IMG/VR virus record: IMGVR_UViG_3300044492_000005
Coordinates: 1-32,902 of that record
Length of the DNA stretch: 32,902 nt
Direction: 5' to 3' (one strand)
DNA from: a virus
A program made the translations under genes and the position numbers. How positions within the stretch are numbered: position 1 is the stretch's first letter; the number at the start of each line of letters is the position of its first letter. The notes under the pieces were generated by a model. That model saw nothing but the letters and a program-made list of their open reading frames with translations, did not search any database and was not told the DNA's origin. This document shows positions 3-17,282 of this stretch, piece by piece.

Positions 3-620
3 GTGTGGATGCGTGATGTGAATGATCCATGTTCGGATGTTGGCATCGAGATACCGTTCGATCTTGTGGTAGACATCGGTGGTCTGCCTATCATACCGAA
101 AACACACATGGAGTTCCGCTTAACGGGTCGGATCGATGGCATCCATTACAACACGAACAACGAGTTGTGTTGTCACGATAATAAAACCGCAAGCAGACTT
201 GGTGATGCATGGGCACAATCATTCTTATTGAGTCATCAGATTACAGGATACTGCGTAGCTGCCTCAACATTTATACAGAAGCCGGTGCACAGTGCTGAGA
301 TACTTGGTCTGGCTATCCCTTTACCTAGGACTTATGATTATGGTGGTTATGTTAGAGAAGTTGTTCGTCGTCACGACTATCACTACGCACGTTGGTTATC
401 CTGGTTAGTCCATACTATTCAACTTGCTCGCCGCTACATGCTTAACCCTTATGATGCGCCTAAATACACACACTCCTGTAATAGATACTTTCGTCCATGC
501 CCAATGATCCCCTTCTGCGATGCTGACGACGAAGAACAACACAAGATCGTAGATGAAATGACCCACGAGGAATGGAGCCCCTTAGATAAACCAATACTTG
601 ATGGCATTGGTAATGAATGA
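3..620 (+). CDS. Cas4/RecB-like PD-(D/E)XK nuclease (5' end outside window)
   Basis: Likely a DNA exonuclease of the PD-(D/E)XK superfamily acting in phage replication or recombination. The reading frame is open to the left edge, so the first codon shown (GTG at 3) is probably internal and the gene is partial. The visible core has GRIDGI followed about 15 residues later by HDNKTAS, which supplies the D...xK of the active site, and then a QITGY helix of the kind found in RecB-family nucleases. Near the C-terminus the cysteines in HSCNRYFRPCPMIPFC resemble the Cas4/AddB iron-sulfur cluster ligands. The fourth ligand would lie in the missing N-terminus or in the ELCCH segment. The gene overlaps the following HNH gene by ATGA. 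The family assignment is inferred from motifs; the class is fairly secure, the exact family less so. Confidence 0.72.
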   Translation: MWMRDVNDPCSDVGIEIPFDLVVDIGGLPIIPKTHMEFRLTGRIDGIHYNTNNELCCHDNKTASRLGDAWAQSFLLSHQITGYCVAASTFIQKPVHSAEILGLAIPLPRTYDYGGYVREVVRRHDYHYARWLSWLVHTIQLARRYMLNPYDAPKYTHSCNRYFRPCPMIPFCDADDEEQHKIVDEMTHEEWSPLDKPILDGIGNE

Positions 621-1099
621 TGGGAGAACCATTCAGTAAGGCAAGGAGACTGGCTCTGGCAGCAGAGCGTAACATCATTGTGGATGCACAAGACCAATGG
701 TTGTTGGAAGAATTTACATGGACGATCAATGACGATGGCTATCCACATACGCGACTCAGTGTGGACATTGATCGACGACGGCCTCGTGTGTTCTTGCATC
801 ACATGATCATTGGTTATCCAATATGGGAAGGAGATGAGATCGATCACATCAACAGATGTGTTACGAACAACAGCCGCGACAATCTACGCTACGTGAATAA
901 GTCACAGTCCATGGTGAATAGATCATGGCAGGTTGGTGAAACAGGAGAACGGAATATAACACTGCGTAACACTGGCATGTATAAGGTCACGGTGTGGCGA
1001 GACAAGGGATGGATATATCTTGGACAGTTTCATACTCTTGCTGAAGCTATCACCGCGCGGGACAAATATCTACAGGTGGTATCAACCGACACCATCTGA
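617..1099 (+). CDS. HNH endonuclease with AP2-like C-terminus, homing type
   Basis: A 160-residue free-standing endonuclease of the HNH/AP2 group common in phages. The HNH core runs from about residue 58 to 100: H61/H62 on the first strand, D76-H77 in EIDHINR, and the asparagines in NNSRDNLR that complete the beta-beta-alpha metal fold. The last 50 residues (YKVTVWRDKGWIYLGQF followed by a helix with repeated alanines) resemble the small AP2 DNA-binding domain that often follows such cores. ATG 617 overlaps the stop of the nuclease gene (ATGA); a second ATG at 620 is equally possible. Such genes usually spread as selfish elements and need not serve replication. The enzyme class is well supported by motifs; its target is unknown. 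Confidence 0.85.
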   Translation: MMGEPFSKARRLALAAERNIIVDAQDQWLLEEFTWTINDDGYPHTRLSVDIDRRRPRVFLHHMIIGYPIWEGDEIDHINRCVTNNSRDNLRYVNKSQSMVNRSWQVGETGERNITLRNTGMYKVTVWRDKGWIYLGQFHTLAEAITARDKYLQVVSTDTI

Positions 1100-3119: not shown

Positions 3120-4427
3120 ATGGACGCAACCAATGCAGTCGTGTTCGACGACATGCAGCAGAAGGCTATCGATGTTTGCTGTGATATAACTAAGCGCATC
3201 GTCGCTGTAACAGGCAGAGCGGGAACTGGTAAGACACTGATCATCCGTGAGGTATCGGATCGATTGAGTGAGATGGGCTACAGTGTGCAGACCAGTGCAC
3301 CTACAGGCAAAGCCGCTAAGCGTATCCGCGAGATCACTGGTCTCGATGCCATGACCAACCACCGTATGCTCGGCTTCGGTATGCCAGTAGACCTGGAGGT
3401 GGATGACGAGAAGACGGGTGAACGCAAGACTGTGCAAGTCAGCACTGGTCCGAAGTTCGACCGCGCTAAGCCATTACCATACGACACCATCCTCTGTGAT
3501 GAGTATGCCATGGTGAACCAGGACATCCATCGCTCACTGATCAATGCATTGAAGAGCGGTGCACGGCTGTGTGTATTCGGTGACGTGAACCAGTTGAAGC
3601 CGATTGAAGAAGACAAACGGTTGAACGATCAACCATCTGCATTCATGGCTGCACTGGATAAGTTTGGTGGCATTGTGTTGAATACAAACCACCGACAGGA
3701 TGAAGGCAGTGGCATTGCGAACAATGGTGCACTGATCCTACAGGGTAGGATGCCACGCGCAGCTAGTGACTTCGCACTGAAGCAAACCGACAATCCCGTG
3801 CGTGCCATACAGGAGTTTGTCGAGGCATCACTGAATGACGACCATGACTATAGCGACAACGAACACCAGATCATCACGTGTATGAACAAGAGTTGGATAG
3901 GCACACAGAAGTTGAACATCGTGCTGCAGTCCATGTTCTGGGATCGTGCACGTCCGTTCATTGAGTTGCCACGCTATCGTGTAGGCAACGTAGCACAGCC
4001 ACCTATCCGTGTGCAGGTAGGCAGCAAGGTGGTGTATACCGCTAACACATATGACATGGGTGATGGTTTCAGCTATGCCTTCAATGGTGAAGTAGGCAAG
4101 GTGATCAACATCAACTACGAGGAAGGCAGTATCGAGATCGACTTCGGTGATCGTAGCGTGGTCGTGCCACCGATCATCGTGCAGGTATATGCGGATGGTC
4201 GTGCTGTTGAACAGGACCCACGTCGTAACATCGACCATGCCTATGTGTTGACGACACACAAGTGTCAGGGCAGTGAGTATAAGCATGTTGCCTATGTGAT
4301 TAACAAGGCCACGATCTGGGGACAATCACGTAGGAATTTCTACACGGCTGTGACACGCGCACGTGAGTACTGCACTGTGTTCACTGACATGATGAGTCTG
4401 TCGAAGTCAACTAAGTTTGTGGGATAA
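3120..4427 (+). CDS. RecD/Dda-type SF1B DNA helicase
   Basis: A 435-residue ATP-dependent 5'-3' type helicase of superfamily 1B, probably unwinding DNA at the phage fork or during recombination. Motifs appear in order: Walker A GRAGTGKT at residues 32-39, SAPTGKAAKR (motif Ia), CDEYAMV (motif II, DEXX type), GDVNQLKP (motif III), NHRQDEGS (motif IV region), THKCQGSEY (motif V) and YTAVTRARE (motif VI). Length is like phage Dda (about 440) and far shorter than bacterial RecD2. A beta-rich stretch between motifs IV and V (VGSKVVYTANTYD, GEVGKVI) matches the SH3-like insert of this group. I prefer ATG 3120, because AAGGA lies nine bases before it but touches the alternative ATG 3111. Confidence 0.9.
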   Translation: MDATNAVVFDDMQQKAIDVCCDITKRIVAVTGRAGTGKTLIIREVSDRLSEMGYSVQTSAPTGKAAKRIREITGLDAMTNHRMLGFGMPVDLEVDDEKTGERKTVQVSTGPKFDRAKPLPYDTILCDEYAMVNQDIHRSLINALKSGARLCVFGDVNQLKPIEEDKRLNDQPSAFMAALDKFGGIVLNTNHRQDEGSGIANNGALILQGRMPRAASDFALKQTDNPVRAIQEFVEASLNDDHDYSDNEHQIITCMNKSWIGTQKLNIVLQSMFWDRARPFIELPRYRVGNVAQPPIRVQVGSKVVYTANTYDMGDGFSYAFNGEVGKVININYEEGSIEIDFGDRSVVVPPIIVQVYADGRAVEQDPRRNIDHAYVLTTHKCQGSEYKHVAYVINKATIWGQSRRNFYTAVTRAREYCTVFTDMMSLSKSTKFVG

Positions 4428-4431
4428 ACCA

Positions 4432-4731
4432 ATGAAGAACAGTGAACTGCTAAGCACAAGTCGTAAGTTATCTGGTGTTGAAGGACAACGACAATTCATC
4501 TTGCGTATGCAGAATGTGAAGATGCCGTGTCCTAACTGTGCTCACCAATTGAATGTGTATGAGGCACATGGCGTAGATGTGGATGATTACAAACCAGAGG
4601 CAGTGCTGGAAAGTAATCCTCATTGCACCAAATGTGGGCGTGCTTTGCGGTATACAGTTCCGTTCATTGCTGTAGGTAATTCATGGCACTGGTCACTAGT
4701 TCCAATCAAGGTCGAAGACAATGATGCTTGA
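4432..4731 (+). CDS. zinc-ribbon protein, 99 residues
   Basis: A small protein with one clear four-cysteine zinc site: CPNC at residues 33-36 and CTKC at 65-68, separated by an acidic loop of about 28 residues. The N-terminal 30 residues are helical and basic, and the C-terminus ends in a strand-rich tail containing W-H-W. Such ribbons are common in phage replication clusters and may bind DNA or the polymerase, but no specific family is recognised. ATG 4432 follows the helicase stop by four bases. The end overlaps the polymerase gene by 11 bases, suggesting coupled translation with it. Confidence 0.75.
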   Translation: MKNSELLSTSRKLSGVEGQRQFILRMQNVKMPCPNCAHQLNVYEAHGVDVDDYKPEAVLESNPHCTKCGRALRYTVPFIAVGNSWHWSLVPIKVEDNDA

Positions 4732-7222
4732 ACCATTCAAGTCCATAGCTGAAGCCAACACAGAACTGCGTGCGCTATGCCTTGGTGCTGGATTCGATTT
4801 CGATTGCGGATGCGGTGGCAAACTTAGCAGCGAGATCGCTATCGTGGCTGAGGCACCCGGTGATCGTGAAGTGCAGCAGCGTATGCCACTCATTGGTGGT
4901 AGCGGTAAGTATCTGTGGGACATACTGCGCAAGAACAAGCTGGGCCGCAATGATGTATACATCACCAATGTGATCAAGCGTAAGCTGGTCAGCAGTGCCA
5001 TCGGCCATGAACTTGCGCCGCGCAAAGAGAAGCAAACCATTCCCAAACAGGAGCGCACGATATGGCAACATATACTACAGGAGGAACTAAGTCGTCTACC
5101 GAACTTGAAATATGTGGTTGCACTTGGCAACTATGCACTGGAGGCTCTGGTCGGGGTTACTGGTATAACCGACAAACGAGGCAGCGTGTTCCCTTTAGTA
5201 ATCTCAGGCCGGGTTATACAGGTAGTGTGCACCTTCAATCCTGCACATGTTATGCGAGAACCCCGGATGGAAGTGGTGTTCCGCATGGACCTGGGTAAGC
5301 TGCAACGTCTCCGCGAAGGCACGTTCCATGTCCCACGTATCGAGTGTCTTATCAATCCCACATTCAGCGAAGCCATGGATACACTGCGGTGGTTGGGTTG
5401 CCAGACCACGCCCATTGCATACGACATTGAGACAATGGCTAGCGAGACTGCATGTGTTGGCTTTGCAGCTACCAATACAGAAGGAGTGTGCATTAATTTC
5501 CGCTCTCAAGGAGAGAATCATTACGCGCCGCATGAAGAACGTGAACTTCGTCTTGCCATACAAGGCTTGCTTGGTGATCCCTCGCGTAAGTTCATCACGC
5601 AGAATGGTCACTACGACGCGACATGGCTCTGGTTCAAGGATCGTATCCGCGTGGACCACCATTGGTTCGACACGATGTTGGCACATCATTTCCTCTATCC
5701 CGGCTTACCGCACGATCTGGGCTTCATCACGGCTCAGTATACAGACCATCCCCATTACAAGGACGAAGGCAAGTTGTGGAAAGAAGAAGGTGATATTGAC
5801 GCCTTCTGGGAATACAATGTCAAGGACTGTTGTATCACACGTATAGCTGCTGAGAAGATGGAGCAGGAGTTGTTGGCTAGTGGCCAGCATGAGCAGTTCC
5901 ACAACCATGTGATGCGTCTGCAACCTGAACTCGTAGAGATGACGATCAATGGAGTGCAAGTAGATGAGCGACTCAAATCCGAACTCAGTGAACGACTTGA
6001 GCGAGGACTCGTTAAAGCAAATGAACTATGCCAAAGCAAGGCACGTGAGGCACTTGGCGATGGCAGCTATGAGTTTAATCCACGAAGTCATCAACAGCTT
6101 GCTAAGCTCTTCTTTAACGACCTTGGCTTGGTCGGACGAGGAACAAGTACAGATAAAGAAAATCGAGATCGTATTAAGAAACATCCAAGAACAAGGCCAG
6201 ATGCTCGCAGCCTTATCGAGGCCATTGATGACTACCTATCCCAATCCAAATTCGTCTCTACCTACATCAACGCAACAGCCGACGACGACGGTAGATGGCG
6301 ATGTGCCTACAAGCAAACAGGAGTAGCCTCTGCACCTGGGCGGTTGAGCAGCAGCCAGACATCTTGGGGTAGTGGACTGAACATGCAGAACATACCAGAA
6401 CAAGCCAAGAACATGTTTGTCGCACCGGCTGGTTGGGAGTTCAGCTACTATGACATGTCTCAGATCGAGGCACGGATTGTGGCTGCACTGGCACACATAC
6501 CTAAGTGGTTAGAGCAATTCGAGAATGCACGCTTGCATCCTGGAACATATGATGCGCATTGTGCGTTAGCGTCAGAGATGTTCAAGGTGCCCTATGAGCA
6601 AGTTCCGCACGACGACCGAGACGGAGGGGGTCTACCTACCATTCGCTTTATCGCAAAGCGATGCAGGCACGGGCTTAACTACCGCATGGCAGCAGACAAA
6701 CTCGCCACCGTCACTGGCCTCGCACCTGTCGAAGCTGAACAAGCGTATCGGTTATACCACATGGCAACCCCACAAATCCAACTGTGGTGGGATGACCTGG
6801 TTGAACTCGTGCGCAGGGACCGTGCTATTACAACTGCCGCAGGACGACGATGGCTCCTTATGGAGCGATGGGACGATGCCGCTCTAGAGTCGATCGTAGC
6901 ATTCGAACCACAAAGCCTGAATGGAGATCATACGTCAGGCGTAATCTACAAATGTCACCAAGACCCTGAGTGGCCTCCATCCGCGCGTATCTTAATCAAT
7001 GTGCACGATGCCAACATAGCCATCAATCGCCATGAGGACGGACCAGCGGTGCGCGCGATCATGCGCAAGTATGCTGAGCAGCCATTGTATATCAATTCAG
7101 TTCAGAATAGACTCCGTGGGATTGACGCCCCCACGGAACTGATCGTGCCAGCAGAAATGGGAGTGTCCGTCCCTGATGAACAAGGTGTTCATCGTTGGTC
7201 CACGATCAGGAAAATAAAATGA
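4721..7222 (+). CDS. Family A DNA polymerase with N-terminal UDG-like domain
   Basis: An 833-residue replicative polymerase fusion. Residues 1-200 resemble family 4 uracil-DNA glycosylase (AEAPGDRE at 43-50, [20 protein letters not shown] at 170-179). Then follows a 3'-5' exonuclease with all three motifs: YDIE at 234-237, NGHYD at 295-299 and YNVKD at 365-369. The polymerase has motif A DMSQIEAR (D578, E583), motif B from R642 through K646 to Y654, and motif C VHDAN (D763). Two residues are unusual: H650 sits at the E. coli Phe762-equivalent position, and Ala764 replaces the usual Glu after the motif C Asp. The glycosylase part has Asn173 where family 4 enzymes usually have His, and lacks the mid-domain Fe-S cysteines. 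ATG 4721 and 4724 are both possible starts. Confidence 0.93.
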
Positions 7223-7683
7223 TAAGGATACCATTAACACAGGACAAGTTTGCAACCATTGATGATGAGGACTACCACCTAGTTGCTCCTTATTCATGGT
7301 ATGCACACAAGATACACGATGTTTGGTATGCGCACAGCGGACGATGGAAGCAGCCAAATCTTGTAATGCATCGTGTGATTTTACAGGCACCACCGGAGAT
7401 GAAGATAGACCATGCGAATGGTGATGGTCTGTACAATGTGCGCAGTAATCTACGACTAGCAACATATTCCCAGAATAATATCCATGCATTCAAACCACAG
7501 ACCGAGTATGGTTCTGGCTATCGTGGTGTTACTGACATGCGTGGTAGATGGCAAGCACGTATAAGTGTAGACAAGGTAAGGAAGAACCTTGGCTTATTCG
7601 ATACAGCAGAGGAAGCTGCACGTGCTTATGATGCAGCAGCAAGAGAATGCCATGGGGAATTTGCACTGCTAAACTTTCCGTGA
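7219..7683 (+). CDS. HNH endonuclease with AP2 domain, homing type
   Basis: A 154-residue HNH-AP2 endonuclease. The HNH core shows H51 in LVMHRVIL, D64-H65 in KIDHANGDG and N77 in NVRSNLR, the classic arrangement. Residues 100-154 form an AP2 domain ([15 protein letters not shown], then [18 protein letters not shown]), a DNA-binding module often attached to phage homing enzymes. The start at ATG 7219 is shared with the polymerase stop (ATGA), with CAGGAA upstream; the TTG start at 7195 is unnecessary. The stop overlaps the GTG of the next gene. It therefore sits exactly in the joint between polymerase and helicase genes, a typical place for a free-standing homing endonuclease. It differs clearly from the HNH gene at 617. 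Confidence 0.92.
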
Positions 7684-8930
7684 ATCCATACTACGACCAA
7701 GTTCCTGCGAATAGTTATATAGCGCATTACTTGCGCTATATGGCTACGCAAGAAACTGCACACGCCTATGATTTCTGGTGCGCGCTATGGTCAATCGCAT
7801 GTGCGTGCGGGCGGAACACAGTCGTCGCACGCCCGCGAGCGCCTGTTTACTTGAACATGTATCTTATACTCGTAGGCGATAGCGGTAAGCCGCGCAAGAC
7901 CACGAGTGTCAACACCGCGCTCAGCTTGGTGCGTGATCTGTATGATGGTGACAATGCCATTGGCTTTGTTGACTCGCGCGTGACGCCTGAACACCTTGAT
8001 CTCATAATCCATGAGCGTTCTAAGGAACATGGTGCAGGCAAGGTGATCATCGGTGTGCCTGAGTTGGCTGTGTTCATGGGTAGTGAGACATACACCGCTG
8101 GTATGCCGCCTACGCTCACGGATTTGTATGATTGTCCTGATCACAGACAAGGCGGCACCATATCGCGTGGCTTATCTGAGCAACGCAACGTGTGGATATC
8201 CATGCTCAGTGCCAGCACACCGATATGGTTACTGAAGACTGTCAATCCGCGTGTGATCGAAGGTGGCTTCTCATCACGCTGCATGTTCGTGGTGAACAAC
8301 GATCCAAAGCAGAGCATACCATGGCCTGATGAACAGGAGAATGGCAATGAGCGCGCGTTGCTTCTGGACGGCTTACACGATATTCTTGCTCGTAGTCGCG
8401 AACATCATAATATTCGTATTGTAGATACAGCACTGAGTAAATTCCGCACGTGGTATGAAGAACGCGAACGTAGTGCTGATCCATACAAGCAGTCGTTTGA
8501 GGCACGCGAGGACGCACATGTGTTGCGCATAGCCGCACTGCTGTGCATCAACGATGGTAGCTGGCTAATCCATCCGCATCACATTGCGTTTGCAATCAAG
8601 CTGATTGCTAGTGTGAAGATGGCTAGCGGTGCCATGTTCGAGCATGGTGTTATGCGCACCAAGTATGCAGCAGCATACGACGTGATACGCACCGCGCTTA
8701 TCGAAGCAGGCATGGACCCTGTGCCTAAGCATGTGCTGACACGCAAGTGTAGATACTGGCTACACGTGAGTGAGTTTCAGATACTCACTGAGGTGATGCA
8801 TGAGTGCCATGCATTGCAACGGTTCCTGTCGCATGAAGGTATGCGCGGACGACCGGCTGAATACTTCAGGGGCACCGACAGACTGTTGCAAAATGGTGTA
8901 GCTGAGCAAGTCCTGAATAGATTTACTTAA
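7680..8930 (+). CDS. DUF3987-like ATPase, probable replicative helicase
   Basis: A 416-residue P-loop protein resembling the DUF3987 group of phage primase-helicase-like ATPases. The nucleotide-binding loop is the variant [11 protein letters not shown] at residues 65-75, with Arg where the second Gly of Walker A usually stands; the group tolerates such RKT or RKS forms. [12 protein letters not shown] supplies a Walker B-like acidic strand, and a conserved-looking SRCMFVVN strand carries a possible arginine finger. I choose GTG 7680 because it overlaps the HNH stop (GTGA), like other joints here. ATG 7647 is an alternative that would add 11 residues read from the HNH gene in another frame. No primase zinc or TOPRIM motif is seen, so a priming activity is not supported. 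Confidence 0.72.
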
Positions 8931-8961
8931 TCAGCATCCATGAATTGCTCAGGACCTTTTT
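8902..8961 (+). terminator. end-of-arm terminator with two competing stems
   Basis: TTGCTCAG (8945-8952) pairs perfectly with CTGAGCAA (8902-8909). The overlapping TCAGGAC (8949-8955) pairs with GTCCTGA (8910-8916). Either stem is followed by CTTTTTG, giving five T's at 8957-8961. The loops are long (about 35 and 32 bases), so the hairpin is less compact than a textbook terminator. Its arms lie inside the ends of the two convergent genes. The plus-strand replication arm must end here, since everything beyond is on the other strand. Confidence 0.5.
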
Positions 8962-11900
8962 GCCAATCGATCTTCATACCGACATGGATGTTCCTGTTCA
9001 GTGCCTTGCTCATGGTATAGTTCGTATCCTGAATGATGTCCTGAATATAGCGATACTTATCTGCTAGATCACGTGTTGCATTATTCATCCATGCACGTCG
9101 TTCCTCAACTCCCATACCATGTGTAGCCACAGATGCCATCTGTTTGCGCATTGCGGATATAGCAGTTTGCTGTGGTGCTATTCTACGATTAGCTGCCTCT
9201 ATCGTAGACCACATGAACTTCATGGTTGGATCAGTAGGTATCTTCGGATCACCTTGTGTGTATGTAGGCAACGAGACACGACCGCGACCAGTCGTGCCTT
9301 CCGCTGCTGGCTCAGTTCGTGATCCCTTAATACCTTTCATCCAACGCAGATCACGCTCTGTCTGCTCCACGATAGGAGGCATGAGTGACATGCGCATTTG
9401 GTGATCCATCAGTGGTGATAGGATACGGTTGCGATCACCAGCACGCTGCACCCAATCATGTCCTACCTGACCTATTGTATCCGACCAGTTACCGAACTGA
9501 TGCAGGTATGGACCAATTGCATTGACATGCTCCATCATGGCTGTGCCTGCTAGACCAAACACTGCACCCATGACCTTGGTCCAGTCCTTACCATCAACAC
9601 CTTCTAGTAGTGTGTCAGGTGTTTGGTTAGGCAACGTGAGTGTGCCCGGTCCTGGTCCGCTAGAGAATGTGCCACGGAACGACTCCCACATACTGTCGCC
9701 TTGCATCATCTTATAGGGATCGAACTGTCCTATCAGTGGTGCGTTCAGGAATGGCGACACTTGGCTACCTGCACCATACTTCAACTGGTTTACCATCGAT
9801 GTGCTTACATGACCACCGAGGAAATCGAGTAGCATCTTGTGCACACTCTGGAACGTGAGTGGATCGTGGTTCATTGCCACGACATTAACTGCATTCGCAA
9901 CCAGACTTTCGATAAGCGTTGCGGGAAGTTGAAATTCCTGTGCAAGTGGTATCATCCATGGCTTACCGTTGGGCAGATAGATTATGATGTTGCCTGAGTG
10001 CTCCTGTGTGCTGAGTTCATCCTGGTAATTCTTGAATGTCTCAGGACTTTGCATTGCGGATAGCAAACTGATCAGCTTGAGTGAACCCAATCCAGTTGCC
10101 ATTGCCATGGCTGAGTTCAGTGGTCGTTCACCAACACTACGCAATGCACGTGCACCACCTTGCAACGAGATGTTTGTGAATGGCAACCTGTCTGTTACCG
10201 CCTTCAGGATCTTACTTTCACCTGATGTGGATGGATTACCAGTCAGTGCACGTGTCTCATATGACAACCGCTCAGGCTGTGATGCTAAGCTATCACGGTT
10301 CAGTCGATAGAATGCATCATGTCCTGCGTCACTAATATGTGATAGCGCATCAACCACTGCGGTATGCAGACGAATAGCAGCAGGCTTGACTCCCATCCAT
10401 GCACCGCCGCTATGGAATAGCTGAGGCACATGTTGTGCTGCTGCAATGCTGGCACGCTTGCTTGCTTCTAGGCCAAGCGGACGCAGTTCCGACTTCGGAC
10501 CATAGCCTCCACCACCGACACCAGCCTTAGCCTGTATCTCATACGTTACCGAGTCACGATAGAACTTATCGAGTGCCTTCTGCATGTTATCAACTGCAAG
10601 ATCACCACGTGCTGAGCGCAACATGCTGTTGACAGGATTCGATGCATTGCGGTCGAGCATGTTTGCCAGATTATGCACACGTCGGTCTGCTACACCACGA
10701 CCATATGCATATGCTGCTGTTGCTGGGTTGGTGAACATGTCCAGGCCACGTGCAACACCACTATCCCAACGTCCGCCTGTCGCAGTGCGCACCGCTTTGT
10801 GAATAATGCCTGCGTTCATACCCTTCGGTGTGTTGATGCTCATCGCTGGTATGGTATAGCCAAGATTGCGTGCAGCAGCAAAGCTACCGGATGCCAATGA
10901 GCCAATGCCTGTGGTGAAGTTCTGGTATATCCTGCGCGGTATGGTTGTTGCCTCAGCCACAATGTGTTGTCGCTTCAGGCTATCACCTGTGAACATGTTT
11001 GCAACGTCTGCATTATTGAACTTGATCCACCTTGTTCCATTATCGGTATGGATAGCCATCTTCGACTCACGTGGACTACCACCGCTATAGTATACCGGCT
11101 TGTCAGGTGGTGCCGTTGTAGGCTCAATCAGCTTAGCCATCTGTGGATAGCGTGTCTGTGCTTCCATGATGTTGTCGTATAGCTGTTTGTTGAACCTGCG
11201 TTGTTCAAACTCATGGTGTATGCCCTCAATGGCCTGCGATTGTGCATCCCATGGTTTGCTGTTCATCTGTTCTACACCAGCAAACAGTGTGCGATCACGC
11301 TGACTGAGCGGTGCCATGACTTTGCCTGTAGCATCCGTCTCAGATATGTGATGTGGATGTGCTTCATTCAGCCTATGCAATTCTTCTGTAGGCAACACGC
11401 CCATACCATGGCCGATCTCGCGCATTCCTTTCTCAATGGCCCAATGACTCTCAGCTAAACGCCTGAGTTCCATATCATTCATCATGGCATCGACTTTGGT
11501 CTGCAAGCCTGCGTCATCTACATGCTTGAAGTCATGCCTTATATCTTCTATCGTTGGTGTAGTGCCTGGATTGCCTTGTCGGAACGATGCACGGTTGTTC
11601 GTGCGATTGTCCTGTTCATTCGCTGCACCGAGACCTTCCATCAACGTGGTCTGCCGTGCATCATCCAGCTTTGCTATAGCACGATACTGCCTGTCAGGTG
11701 ATGGCACCTGTATTCCTGTATCGGGATGGTATCCTGTATCCAGGAACGCATCGAATCGTGTGCGATTGTATCCATCATCATGCAGCAAACCATATTGGTG
11801 TGCTAATGCCTGTGCATTCGTAGGCGTAGCGACATTGCGTATGATCTCCTGATCACGTGCAGTCTTATCCAGCACTGCATTGTTTGCACGGTTCAGGCCA

Positions 11901-13051
11901 GTGCGTGCTGCATTCGCCATGGGTATTGGTGCAGGTATTGCCTGCTCACCACCCTGTGATATGGCACCTTGGCCCTTAGCAATTTGCGCATTCTGGTAAT
12001 CCGTTACACGTGCTGCATATGCTGGATCGTTTATGCGTGCTGCACGTTGTGCTTCTGTAATACCTGCGTTGCGTTCACGCAAACCACGACCAGCACGTAT
12101 TGCAATGCCTGTGCCTAGTATCGCAGCAAGTGCACCACCGACACCCATAGTGCCGACACCCTGGCCTTGTTGCATAGGCACTTCCGTTGGTTGTTCACTA
12201 CCAAGGAAATCAGCAAAGCTGCCCGGCTGTTGTTTGGGTGCGAGTGTATCTGCAAACGATGTTGGTTGTTGTTGTTTCTGCTCTGCTGCATACACATCAG
12301 CGAATGATGGCGTAACAGGAGGACGTGTGTCGGATGCAACTCGTGGTGTTGCTTCAGCTACCTGCGTCGGTGGTGGTGCAGGCGTTGGTTCATTGCGTGA
12401 TTGTGCATCAAGCCTTAACTGTTCGGCTGCATCAACCACATTCGACTGTGGCATCGGTATGCCAGTAGCTTTAGCTTCTGCCTTTAGCTGATTGTATTCA
12501 TCAAGTGATGCACCGCCTTCATTCACCGCAGTGAGCGGCACTGCCAAACGCACTGCTGCTGCAAGTGAATGTGGAGACAATCCCATACCCAGCATGGAAC
12601 CAAGTGAGTCAGCGAATTGACCTTCTGCATCATCACCTGGAACTTTTAGTAATCCACCCGTGCCATACTCGATGCCATGTTGTATTTCCTTCTGTGTGTC
12701 TGCGCCATGTTCACCCAGCTTGCGTAGGGTTTCCATGCCTGGAAGTTTCCAGTCAGTGTTATTACCTGTTATGGTATTGCGCACAACACCTGCTGCATCT
12801 ATGACACCAGCAAGTGCGCCTGCTCCTGTCTCAGCTGCGCCTGCACCCGGCACGTAGTTGAGTAGATTTGGTCCGCCTGTTAATTCAGTAAGTCGAGGAT
12901 CAGGTGCAAGCAATGTGATTGGCATGGATGCCGCTGCGTTGCCTACAGCCGCTAGGCCAGGAAGCATATGCTTAGCAGTAGCAAGACGCTGTTGATCATC
13001 AACAGGATTGCCTGAGTATTCTTCTAGTCCAAGGCCGAAGTATGGGTTCAA
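8927..13051 (-). CDS. giant internal virion / DNA ejection protein, polyvalent type
   Basis: A 1374-residue protein, the largest in the window and the last of the late strand. Position and size match the big ejected internal proteins of podoviruses (compare T7 gp16). Residues 215-285 are Pro/Gln-rich and contain three SFAD motifs. Around 300-320 lies a Gly/Ala-rich hydrophobic stretch (GVGGALAAILGTGIAIRAG) that could enter a membrane. Around 950-980 the segment LPFTNISLQGGARAL resembles LPD38-type domains of phage polyvalent proteins. No lysozyme or transglycosylase motif was identified. The start is TTG 13051: it overlaps the previous stop as TTGA, AGGAAGG lies six bases upstream, and the next ATG is 28 codons later. 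Function is inferred from context. Confidence 0.8.
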   Translation of the reverse strand: MNPYFGLGLEEYSGNPVDDQQRLATAKHMLPGLAAVGNAAASMPITLLAPDPRLTELTGGPNLLNYVPGAGAAETGAGALAGVIDAAGVVRNTITGNNTDWKLPGMETLRKLGEHGADTQKEIQHGIEYGTGGLLKVPGDDAEGQFADSLGSMLGMGLSPHSLAAAVRLAVPLTAVNEGGASLDEYNQLKAEAKATGIPMPQSNVVDAAEQLRLDAQSRNEPTPAPPPTQVAEATPRVASDTRPPVTPSFADVYAAEQKQQQPTSFADTLAPKQQPGSFADFLGSEQPTEVPMQQGQGVGTMGVGGALAAILGTGIAIRAGRGLRERNAGITEAQRAARINDPAYAARVTDYQNAQIAKGQGAISQGGEQAIPAPIPMANAARTGLNRANNAVLDKTARDQEIIRNVATPTNAQALAHQYGLLHDDGYNRTRFDAFLDTGYHPDTGIQVPSPDRQYRAIAKLDDARQTTLMEGLGAANEQDNRTNNRASFRQGNPGTTPTIEDIRHDFKHVDDAGLQTKVDAMMNDMELRRLAESHWAIEKGMREIGHGMGVLPTEELHRLNEAHPHHISETDATGKVMAPLSQRDRTLFAGVEQMNSKPWDAQSQAIEGIHHEFEQRRFNKQLYDNIMEAQTRYPQMAKLIEPTTAPPDKPVYYSGGSPRESKMAIHTDNGTRWIKFNNADVANMFTGDSLKRQHIVAEATTIPRRIYQNFTTGIGSLASGSFAAARNLGYTIPAMSINTPKGMNAGIIHKAVRTATGGRWDSGVARGLDMFTNPATAAYAYGRGVADRRVHNLANMLDRNASNPVNSMLRSARGDLAVDNMQKALDKFYRDSVTYEIQAKAGVGGGGYGPKSELRPLGLEASKRASIAAAQHVPQLFHSGGAWMGVKPAAIRLHTAVVDALSHISDAGHDAFYRLNRDSLASQPERLSYETRALTGNPSTSGESKILKAVTDRLPFTNISLQGGARALRSVGERPLNSAMAMATGLGSLKLISLLSAMQSPETFKNYQDELSTQEHSGNIIIYLPNGKPWMIPLAQEFQLPATLIESLVANAVNVVAMNHDPLTFQSVHKMLLDFLGGHVSTSMVNQLKYGAGSQVSPFLNAPLIGQFDPYKMMQGDSMWESFRGTFSSGPGPGTLTLPNQTPDTLLEGVDGKDWTKVMGAVFGLAGTAMMEHVNAIGPYLHQFGNWSDTIGQVGHDWVQRAGDRNRILSPLMDHQMRMSLMPPIVEQTERDLRWMKGIKGSRTEPAAEGTTGRGRVSLPTYTQGDPKIPTDPTMKFMWSTIEAANRRIAPQQTAISAMRKQMASVATHGMGVEERRAWMNNATRDLADKYRYIQDIIQDTNYTMSKALNRNIHVGMKIDWQKGPEQFMDAD

Positions 13052-15112: not shown

Positions 15113-15559
15113 TTATATAGCCTTCATGTATTGCATCTCGGTCAACGTGTAACCGTGTTTGGGGAATATCGGTTCTACATTGTAGAGCGTGCGGTATCCA
15201 TGGATGATCATCTTCACGTCATACATCTTGAGTAGCGGCTCAGCAGCTTTCAGCAGCTTGTGTGCTATACCCTTACCACGATGCTCCAGTTTCACCGCGA
15301 GTGTGCCACATGATGCGAATATCGTGGTCTTATGGAACGGATGCGGATTGATGAAGTATGTGACGAAGCCATTCAGCTTATCGTGATCACGATACGTGAC
15401 AACCACGAACTTATCTTGTGCCTCTAGCTTAGCCATCTGATCCCAGTCCATGCTCAGTGGTGGCATGAACTCATGTGCTACAGTCTTCTCGTAGTATTCA
15501 ACCACGATTGCATTCAGCAAGTGTGAACACTTCTTGAGTGGTTCAACTTGTATACTCAA
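15113..15559 (-). CDS. GNAT-family acetyltransferase 1
   Basis: A 148-residue GNAT-fold N-acetyltransferase. The acetyl-CoA pyrophosphate-binding motif A appears as LEHRGKGIAHKLLKAAEPLL (R-G-K-G-I-A, near residues 92-111), preceded by the beta-4 strand GTLAVKL. FVVVTYRDHDKLNGFVTYFI matches the beta-2/beta-3 hairpin. The end KHGYTLTEMQYMK matches beta-7. Start choice is TTG 15559, overlapping the upstream stop as TTGA, with an AGGTG-like site close by; the first ATG would remove 31 residues, including the first helix. It sits inside the virion operon between two putative ejection-protein genes. The substrate is unknown and could be a virion protein or a host protein. Confidence 0.8.
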   Translation of the reverse strand: MSIQVEPLKKCSHLLNAIVVEYYEKTVAHEFMPPLSMDWDQMAKLEAQDKFVVVTYRDHDKLNGFVTYFINPHPFHKTTIFASCGTLAVKLEHRGKGIAHKLLKAAEPLLKMYDVKMIIHGYRTLYNVEPIFPKHGYTLTEMQYMKAI

Positions 15560-16663: not shown

Positions 16664-17128
16664 CTATGTCCTCACATACTTGTATATGGACCCAAACCGT
16701 GTGAAGCCCATATGCCTATACAACGCATCCACCCCAATGGTGTTGATACCAGCCACGTCACCGCTCTGCACCAACACAGTCTTGTGCGTATCGATACACC
16801 AATCCACGAAGCCCTTCATCAATCGCATACCGATAGCGGCTCTGCTGTGTGTGCCTTCACGCACATACCATGCATCCTCGATTCCCATCAAGTCGGGACT
16901 GAAGTAGAACGGAACCACCTTGCCACATACCGCACCAACATATTGTTCATCCACTACCGCTAGGCGAAAGTAATAGTCCTTCTGCGATATCGTGTAGAGC
17001 ATCATGGCTTTGCAATGTCCCCAGTTGAATGCTGGGCCATGTGTGCCATAATATCCTAGACCGTGTAACTCATGTGCAAGTCCAACCGCATAGCCGACAT
17101 TCTCTTCAGTTAGCGGGACGATCTGCAT
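16664..17128 (-). CDS. GNAT-family acetyltransferase 2
   Basis: A 154-residue GNAT-like protein, only distantly similar to the one at 15113. Visible features are LAVVDEQYVGAVCGKVVPFY (beta-2/3 hairpin), IEDAWYVREGTHSRAAIGMRLMK, in which GTHSRAAIG stands at the acetyl-CoA loop, and YRHMGFTRFGSIYKY, the characteristic late beta-strand region. ATG 17128 is preferred to TTG 17137. No strong ribosome site precedes either, and translation may depend on coupling with the overlapping 58-residue gene. Phage GNATs near tail genes are common and mostly uncharacterised; the target cannot be read from sequence. Confidence 0.78.
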   Translation of the reverse strand: MQIVPLTEENVGYAVGLAHELHGLGYYGTHGPAFNWGHCKAMMLYTISQKDYYFRLAVVDEQYVGAVCGKVVPFYFSPDLMGIEDAWYVREGTHSRAAIGMRLMKGFVDWCIDTHKTVLVQSGDVAGINTIGVDALYRHMGFTRFGSIYKYVRT

Positions 17129-17282
17129 CAACTGCAACCATGCATTGTGTCACAATGGCTTGTATCGCACCGACGACTTGATCGTATGGTGCCTTGTTGA
17201 GAATGGTCAGTACATTCTGCCATTCAGCAGCACTCATGGTTACGCTCAGCGGTGTGTTTGGATCAATCGGTTGCGGTTTCAT
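17106..17282 (-). CDS. small tail-cluster protein, 58 residues
   Basis: This short gene is supported by its junctions. ATG 17282 overlaps the stop of the S74 fibre gene as ATGA, and the end overlaps the acetyltransferase gene by 23 bases. The 58-residue product begins MKPQPIDPNTPLSVTMSA and then has two amphipathic helices (AEWQNVLTILNKAPYDQVV and AIQAIVTQCMVAV). The layout of a short beta strand, then EW-x-x-V-L, then a helix ending in V-x-x-I-x-x-I recalls small unnamed proteins found beside tail-fibre genes in other phages, but I cannot name a family. It could be a fibre-assembly factor, judged on position only. Confidence 0.72.
   Translation of the reverse strand: MKPQPIDPNTPLSVTMSAAEWQNVLTILNKAPYDQVVGAIQAIVTQCMVAVDADRPAN

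Follow-up and report, generated by a model that had tools for sequence, protein, structure and literature searches.

The polymerase gene of this phage begins with a domain resembling uracil-DNA glycosylases (UDGs), which raises the question of whether this domain still excises uracil and, if it does not, what a replicative polymerase keeps it for.

Layout and setting of the fusion polymerase

The window, by which we mean the whole stretch of DNA analysed, is a virus record of IMG/VR, 32,902 bases long. Its minus strand holds the genes for the phage head, tail and packaging, and on its plus strand a replication module encodes a Sak4-like annealing protein, a RecD/Dda-like helicase, the polymerase, an HNH-AP2 endonuclease and a DUF3987 primase-like protein. 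The polymerase gene is organized as follows:

4721..7222, plus strand: UDG-like / 3'-5' exonuclease / family A DNA polymerase, 833 aa in a single unbroken frame (phrog_17 DNA polymerase, 1.6e-88)
4820..5320, plus strand: family 4 UDG-like domain, residues 34-200 (Pfam UDG, 2.8e-16; PDB 1l9g, E 3.8e-14 with the clade profile)
5405..5872, plus strand: 3'-5' exonuclease, residues 229-384 (Pfam; Asp235, Glu237, Asp299, Tyr365 and Asp369 conserved)
6008..7060, plus strand: polymerase thumb, palm and fingers, residues 430-780 (Asp578, Arg642, Lys646, Tyr654 and Asp763 conserved)

Pfam searches matched UDG at residues 34-183 (E 2.8e-16), the 3'-5' exonuclease at 229-384 and DNA_pol_A at 430-715, in that order in a single chain, and the exonuclease DxE, N..D and YxxxD residues as well as polymerase motifs A, B and C of family A enzymes are all present. 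A preliminary description of this DNA had read the first 200 or so residues as a family 4 UDG-like domain fused to a complete exonuclease-polymerase, and the Pfam and profile matches together with the intact catalytic residues bear this out, the UDG fold lying at residues 34-200. Searched with a profile of its clade, the domain matched solved family 4 UDGs in the PDB at E 4e-14, and its hhalign probability against canonical UDGs was 99.5%. Although its score against the NCBIfam family 4 model (TIGR00758 UDG_fam4) is 72.9 bits, under the curated cut-off of 125.3, this match is real homology.

The same domain order is found in the phage UDG-exonuclease-PolA fusions of SPO1-like and other Herelleviridae phages and of Lupandier jumbo phages such as PaBG (gp205), which belong to phrog_17, and the PDB even lists family 4 homologues under the title 'Phage SPO1 DNA polymerase-related protein'. 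The architecture itself is thus already known in phages. In the literature searched on the fusion, on inactive UDG domains and on T5 polymerase, the PaBG genome paper was the only discussion of the architecture found; it describes the UDG domain as if active and does not discuss loss of activity (PMC7412058), and an Enterococcus phage genome paper names such a fusion protein and nothing more. Systematic loss of canonical residues, or a frozen altered pocket, was not described in this literature, which lacks most subscription journals.

A full-length AlphaFold2 model built from 96 diverse rows reached a pLDDT of 92.0 and a pTM of 0.88 and is confident except at residues 92-103; an earlier model from 19 close relatives (pLDDT 51.6) was discarded. 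Residues 205-831 superpose on Pol I fragments and Klenow-like polymerases with Z of about 32-35 (VIA-align), and since the VIA-align matches listed are polymerases only, the UDG assignment rests on the sequence and profile matches. The whole model gave TMq values of 0.67-0.74 against several phage polymerases (BFVD, best 0.74) and of 0.52-0.57 against the listed cellular polymerases without a UDG domain. Because the phage values exceed the cellular ones, the comparison of models fits a placement of the UDG domain shared among phage polymerases.

The HNH-AP2 endonuclease gene (7195-7683, plus strand) overlaps the 3' end of the polymerase gene. It occupies the same place in two relatives (L024, 7475-7960; L017, 2058-2543), lies directly upstream of the polymerase gene in L014, L015 and L028, and gave no match in L008, L012, L018 or L020, a variable position such as a free-standing homing endonuclease would show. 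Between the helicase and polymerase genes sits a 104-aa ORF (4417-4731, plus strand) with zinc-ribbon-like Cys pairs, for which tblastn found no homologue in 28 relatives. This ORF looks like an insertion, because in L007, whose polymerase is 99% identical, the helicase match stops about 9 bases ahead of the polymerase start. A second HNH endonuclease gene (617-1099, plus strand) is 98% identical in L007 and L024, most relatives being without a close match. On the minus strand, two acetyltransferase-like genes (15113-15559 and 16664-17137), both phrog_1249, lie amid the virion genes on either side of a 368-aa protein that matches no PHROG, and the window's largest protein (1374 aa, 8927-13051), likewise without a PHROG match, is encoded where the virion gene block ends.

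Residue status of the UDG-like domain

Polymerases of the same clade are encoded at 28 IMG/VR loci, and up to 26 rows of the alignment, window included, cover the UDG domain at 63-98% identity. The residues and segments that bear on activity are:

4778..4813, plus strand: Cys20, Cys29 and Cys31; of these, Cys29 alone is invariant, and all three lie off the Fe-S ligand columns
4847..4870, plus strand: motif 1, AEAPGDRE, residues 43-50; Glu44 and Glu50 kept, Ala in place of Gly43
4889..4891, plus strand: Leu57, where the uracil-stacking Phe (UdgX F65) is expected; clade-invariant (role from PMC10776899)
4964..4993, plus strand: motif 3, residues 82-91; Asn83 and Lys86 kept, one Fe-S Cys replaced by Arg87
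4994..5029, plus strand: low-confidence loop, residues 92-103; the Fe-S loop in family 4 UDGs and the KRRIH loop in UdgX
5063..5065, plus strand: Trp115, at the position of the second mid-domain Fe-S Cys (alignment)
5177..5185, plus strand: Arg153-Gly154-Ser155, conserved strand/loop of the UDG fold (alignment)
5237..5257, plus strand: motif 2, NPAHVMR, residues 173-179; Asn173 in place of the catalytic His, Arg179 kept (roles from PMC10359453, PMC10776899)

Residue roles were taken from published work on UdgX, including its mutagenesis (PMC10359453, PMC10776899); E52, F65, N91, K94, H178 and R184 of UdgX correspond to Glu44, Leu57, Asn83, Lys86, Asn173 and Arg179 of the window's polymerase. 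The sequence strings on which the preliminary description was built were all found where it had placed them, including the retained AEAPGDRE at residues 43-50. Compared with the family 4 pattern GE[AG]PG, AEAPG in motif 1 retains the Glu, Pro and Gly and has Ala for the first Gly. In motif 3, both Lys86 and Asn83, the residue of uracil recognition whose UdgX counterpart N91 makes a bidentate contact to uracil, are invariant, and Arg179 in motif 2 corresponds to R184, a DNA-backbone contact in UdgX (PMC10359453, PMC10776899).

Motif 2 itself reads NPAHVMR and not HPS or HPA, as had been pointed out before; all clade members covering the motif have NPA, with Asn173 invariant. A further change, beyond those named in the preliminary description, is Leu57, which occupies a column that is Phe in 80 of 80 bacterial family 4 UDGs. 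For the UdgX mutants H178A and F65A no activity could be detected (PMC10776899), so that, besides the cluster ligands, the domain lacks two residues on which uracil excision depends in the nearest enzyme studied. The bacterial reference UDGs were fetched with a pattern containing HP and R, so that their 100% His at motif 2 is built in and was left unused as evidence, and their Phe, Asn, Glu and Cys frequencies are independent of this pattern.

The mid-domain Fe-S cysteines, which the preliminary description had reported as lacking near VIKRKL, are indeed absent: TNVIKRKL spans residues 82-89, and the two positions, Cys in 94% and 99% of the bacterial family 4 UDGs (n=80), are Arg87 and Trp115. 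None of the four Fe-S ligands is kept, and the N-terminus has no conserved CxxC. Cys20, Cys29 and Cys31 are all present, as had been noted, but Cys20 and Cys31 vary within the clade and the invariant Cys29 falls outside the ligand columns, so that the three were rejected as a surviving part of the cluster. Aligning phage homologues with the same fusion, which the preliminary description had proposed as a check, revealed that the residue losses are common to the clade, and gave no sign that other cysteines take over, Cys29 lying off the ligand positions. Nor does the alignment support a replacement role for His176, which is clade-invariant and lies three residues past the lost His position. Glu44, Leu57, Asn83, Lys86, Arg87, Asn173, His176 and Arg179 are invariant wherever they are covered in the clade. 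The losses are no sequencing accident, because they are common to every relative found (up to 26 IMG/VR sequences).

With the family 4 UDGa enzymes (T. maritima, 1l9g/1vk2; T. thermophilus, 1ui0), the domain shares the fold, the motif 1 Glu, the motif 3 Asn and Lys and the motif 2 Pro and Arg; unlike them, it is fused to a polymerase and lacks the Fe-S ligands, the motif 2 His and the stacking Phe. UdgX of M. smegmatis, a close structural relative of family 4 that excises uracil and crosslinks itself, resembles the window's domain in a longer loop past motif 3, but the window's domain lacks GEQPG, the His of KRRIH and the Fe-S ligands. A UdgX-like crosslinking domain was rejected accordingly, residues 43-47 reading AEAPG and not GEQPG and the clade having neither KRRIH nor a conserved His past motif 3. 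AEAPG also differs from GINPG, the motif 1 of family 2 (Mug/TDG). The clade's domain is unusually basic, with a net charge of +8.2 (sd 1.7); bacterial family 4 UDGs have +3.9 (sd 3.0) and the sister group described below has +4.7, a contrast in which the single clade is a single data point.

Loss of canonical residues in other phage fusions

In other phages the fusion is found at every stage of this loss. Fusions with the full canonical set, including all four Fe-S cysteines and the His, were found in vir526, ctfzr933 and StAshley, whereas the window's clade has its own fixed set of Leu57, Arg87 and Asn173. Herelleviridae loci such as L127 retain the cysteines and the His, and the recognition Asn is gone. 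PDB entry 9qhs, 'Putative DNA-directed DNA polymerase I' (1142 aa), matches at its N-terminus the canonical fused UDG of ctfzr933 (E 3e-9) and is probably, judging from sequence, a solved UDG-polymerase fusion; its chain is longer than the window's and its match to the window's UDG domain is weak (E 0.37).

A large sister group, made up of Microcystis phage Mel-JY34 and IMG/VR relatives, has lost the cluster ligands. At the motif 2 position it has His in 59 of 84 rows and S, P, A, T, N or Q in the others. On a tree built from the exonuclease-polymerase part, this His changes at least 12 times over all rows and at least 11 times within the sister group, and the window's clade forms a single branch with full support, which counts as one evolutionary event. 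Because of the repeated changes in the sister group, the loss of canonical residues is recurrent in phages and not peculiar to the window's phage, and any suggestion that it is unusual is not supported. Asn83 is lost in 10 of 19 sister-group rows without the His and in 1 of 34 rows with it; all informative independent pairs in the group show the same direction of co-loss, too few for significance. The catalytic residues of both the exonuclease and the polymerase hardly vary across 72 fusion polymerases, the 34 without the His among them.

Some loci carry the UDG domain and the polymerase in separate frames, parted by a gap or by small ORFs (L033 of Caulobacter phage Kuura, 550-1659 and 2272-3954; L119, 2995-3693 and 3932-5663; L113); they are either split versions of the fusion or interruptions by introns or sequencing. 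Two fusion polymerases are about 1130-1180 aa long, compared with the usual 800-850 (L126, 2893-6420; L273, 2995-6372), and the extra length may be an intein or another insertion.

In profile comparison, T5-like polymerases also aligned through their N-terminal region with the window's polymerase at residues 126-204 (E 4.7e-5), as well as with two other UDG alignments; all three scores lay above those of every one of 100 column shuffles and far above those of reversed sequences. A UDG profile found this region in nine T5-like loci at E 2e-5 to 4e-4, whereas a Pfam search found no UDG in it. In the T5-like polymerases (L044-L085) the probable remnant lies at residues about 55-131. T5 has SPAQ at the position of the window's NPAH, and motifs 1 and 3 are unrecognisable. 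These profile matches suggest that the N-terminus of T5 polymerase is probably a further-decayed UDG domain. We take the aligned part to be the N-terminal region unique to T5 polymerase, the role of which is unsettled. Published work places the processivity of this enzyme mainly at its C-terminus, and we claim no N-terminal processivity.

Selection on the pocket and its possible role

We compared pN/pS between 55 motif columns and the other 112 columns of the UDG domain. With pS near saturation (about 0.7), so that only relative pN/pS values are meaningful, the window's clade gave 0.110 for the pocket motifs and 0.340 for the rest of the domain, next to 0.077 for the exonuclease and 0.091 for the polymerase catalytic motifs. 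The motif columns had been picked partly with the clade alignment in view, and the sister group, handled identically, served as the control: on the same columns, its members without the His gave 0.437 for the motifs and 0.425 for the rest, and those with the His were intermediate (0.295 and 0.392). Invariant columns in the window's clade numbered 46 of 55 in the motifs and 32 of 112 elsewhere (Fisher p 1e-11; the columns are not independent, and their choice was partly guided by the alignment).

The pocket is not simply decaying, since it is under purifying selection no weaker than that on the catalytic motifs, as expected of a reader or clamp, and for the same reason we infer that it is likely still in use. 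In the sister-group members lacking the His, the pocket is relaxed although the domain stays; since the pocket is frozen in the window's clade, the changed pocket there seems to have a job. A fold kept only as a packing surface for the exonuclease and polymerase, with an idle pocket, would probably describe those sister-group members, whose pocket evolves much like the rest of the domain, and the T5-like polymerases, in which only the C-terminal half is recognisable; for the window's clade it is improbable, given the lower pN/pS of its pocket and the excess of invariant motif columns.

Taken together, the sequence comparisons make it likely that the UDG domain performs no canonical uracil excision, and a pocket that is functional in some way appears just as likely. 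The best explanation overall, to which we assign a probability of roughly 0.5, is that the domain now contacts DNA without excising and serves the polymerase as a binding module, either a tether or a base reader. Under this explanation, a family 4 UDG domain in the first 200 residues, fused to a phage family A replicative polymerase, would have given up canonical uracil excision. The stacking Phe, the motif 2 His and the cluster ligands are gone from it; its presumed DNA-facing elements (Glu44, Asn83, Lys86, Arg153-Gly154, Pro174 and Arg179) are held as strictly as catalytic motifs, and a new fixed pocket set (Leu57, Arg87, Asn173 and His176) equally so. The pocket would grip the strand, and possibly a flipped base, beside the exonuclease and polymerase, and this grip would hold the polymerase to its template or cause pausing.

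Counted in support of this explanation are the clade-wide loss of canonical residues, the UdgX mutants H178A and F65A, the intact exonuclease and polymerase residues, the selection on the pocket, the basic charge, the confident model, the whole-model TMq and the precedent of poxvirus D4; counted against it are the retention of Glu44, Asn83 and Lys86, which may point to residual or altered catalysis, and the catalytic-site-like conservation of the pocket, which also fits an enzyme. The vaccinia virus UDG D4 is a polymerase processivity factor (PMC10253040), and the title of De Silva and Moss 2003, as cited there, speaks of an essential role of D4 independent of glycosylase activity. D4, acting with A20 and the polymerase E9, is likewise a UDG fold serving a viral replicative polymerase, but it is a family 1 enzyme, still catalytic, and a separate subunit of a family B polymerase, which makes it an analogy and not a homologue of the fusion. 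By this analogy, the basic charge and pocket constraint are consistent with a D4-like processivity role.

Archaeal family B polymerases pause ahead of uracil, using another fold. A specific reader, whose pocket would bind flipped uracil or a phage-modified base uncut so that the polymerase pauses before copying it, would account for the constraint equal to that of catalytic sites and for invariant Asn83 and Lys86 where His and Phe are not kept. We consider it unlikely in this narrow form, since the uracil-stacking Phe is Leu in every clade member, Asn83 often goes once the His is gone in the sister group, and 15 records searched gave no sign of a uracil- or base-modification lifestyle: Pfam searches of these records, drawn from both groups, found no dUTPase, dCMP deaminase or second UDG, a weak result with several of them fragments.

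The main alternative to a DNA-contact role is a glycosylase with another substrate, in which Asn173 would act in a Mug/TDG-like role and Glu44 or Glu50 would activate water to remove a non-uracil or mispaired base. Motif 2 of E. coli Mug reads NPSGLS. Family 2 UDGs lack the motif 2 His (MPSSSAR, PMC10359453), UDG specificity varies widely between families (PMC10776899), and the window's domain retains Glu44, Glu50, Asn83 and Lys86 in a pocket frozen like an active site. Against these points stand a motif 1 of family 4 and not family 2 type, the abolition of UdgX activity by either H178A or F65A, and the downstream repair that an abasic site inside a replicating polymerase would need, for which no gene was identified among the window's annotated genes, only part of them scanned for one; an altered glycosylase is also rather unlikely.

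The non-excising, DNA-contacting role remains our preferred reading. The preliminary description had offered a uracil reader, a stalling sensor or a processivity clamp instead of an active glycosylase; the domain does fail the sequence tests for an active Fe-S family 4 enzyme, and its pocket is under selection like catalytic motifs, but the sequence does not choose among the three. A broader proposal, which we put forward as possible but doubtful, is that in this phage clade the built-in UDG became a reader of bases or of the strand that does not cut, its rebuilt pocket (Leu57, Arg87, Asn173 and His176) being constrained like an active site, and that the UDG domains of many phage family A polymerases, that of T5 among them, represent successive steps in the loss of their chemistry.

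The known fusion had been presented as a polymerase with an added repair enzyme, but here the domain clearly outlives its canonical residues. Annotators should also be wary of equating a 'UDG domain' in a phage polymerase with uracil repair. The link to T5 brings in a well-studied laboratory enzyme. The contrast between the sister group, in which the His was lost again and again and the pocket is relaxed, and the window's clade, in which a changed pocket is frozen, makes it possible to test directly what a UDG fold that does not excise contributes to a replicative polymerase, an issue until now linked with poxvirus D4.
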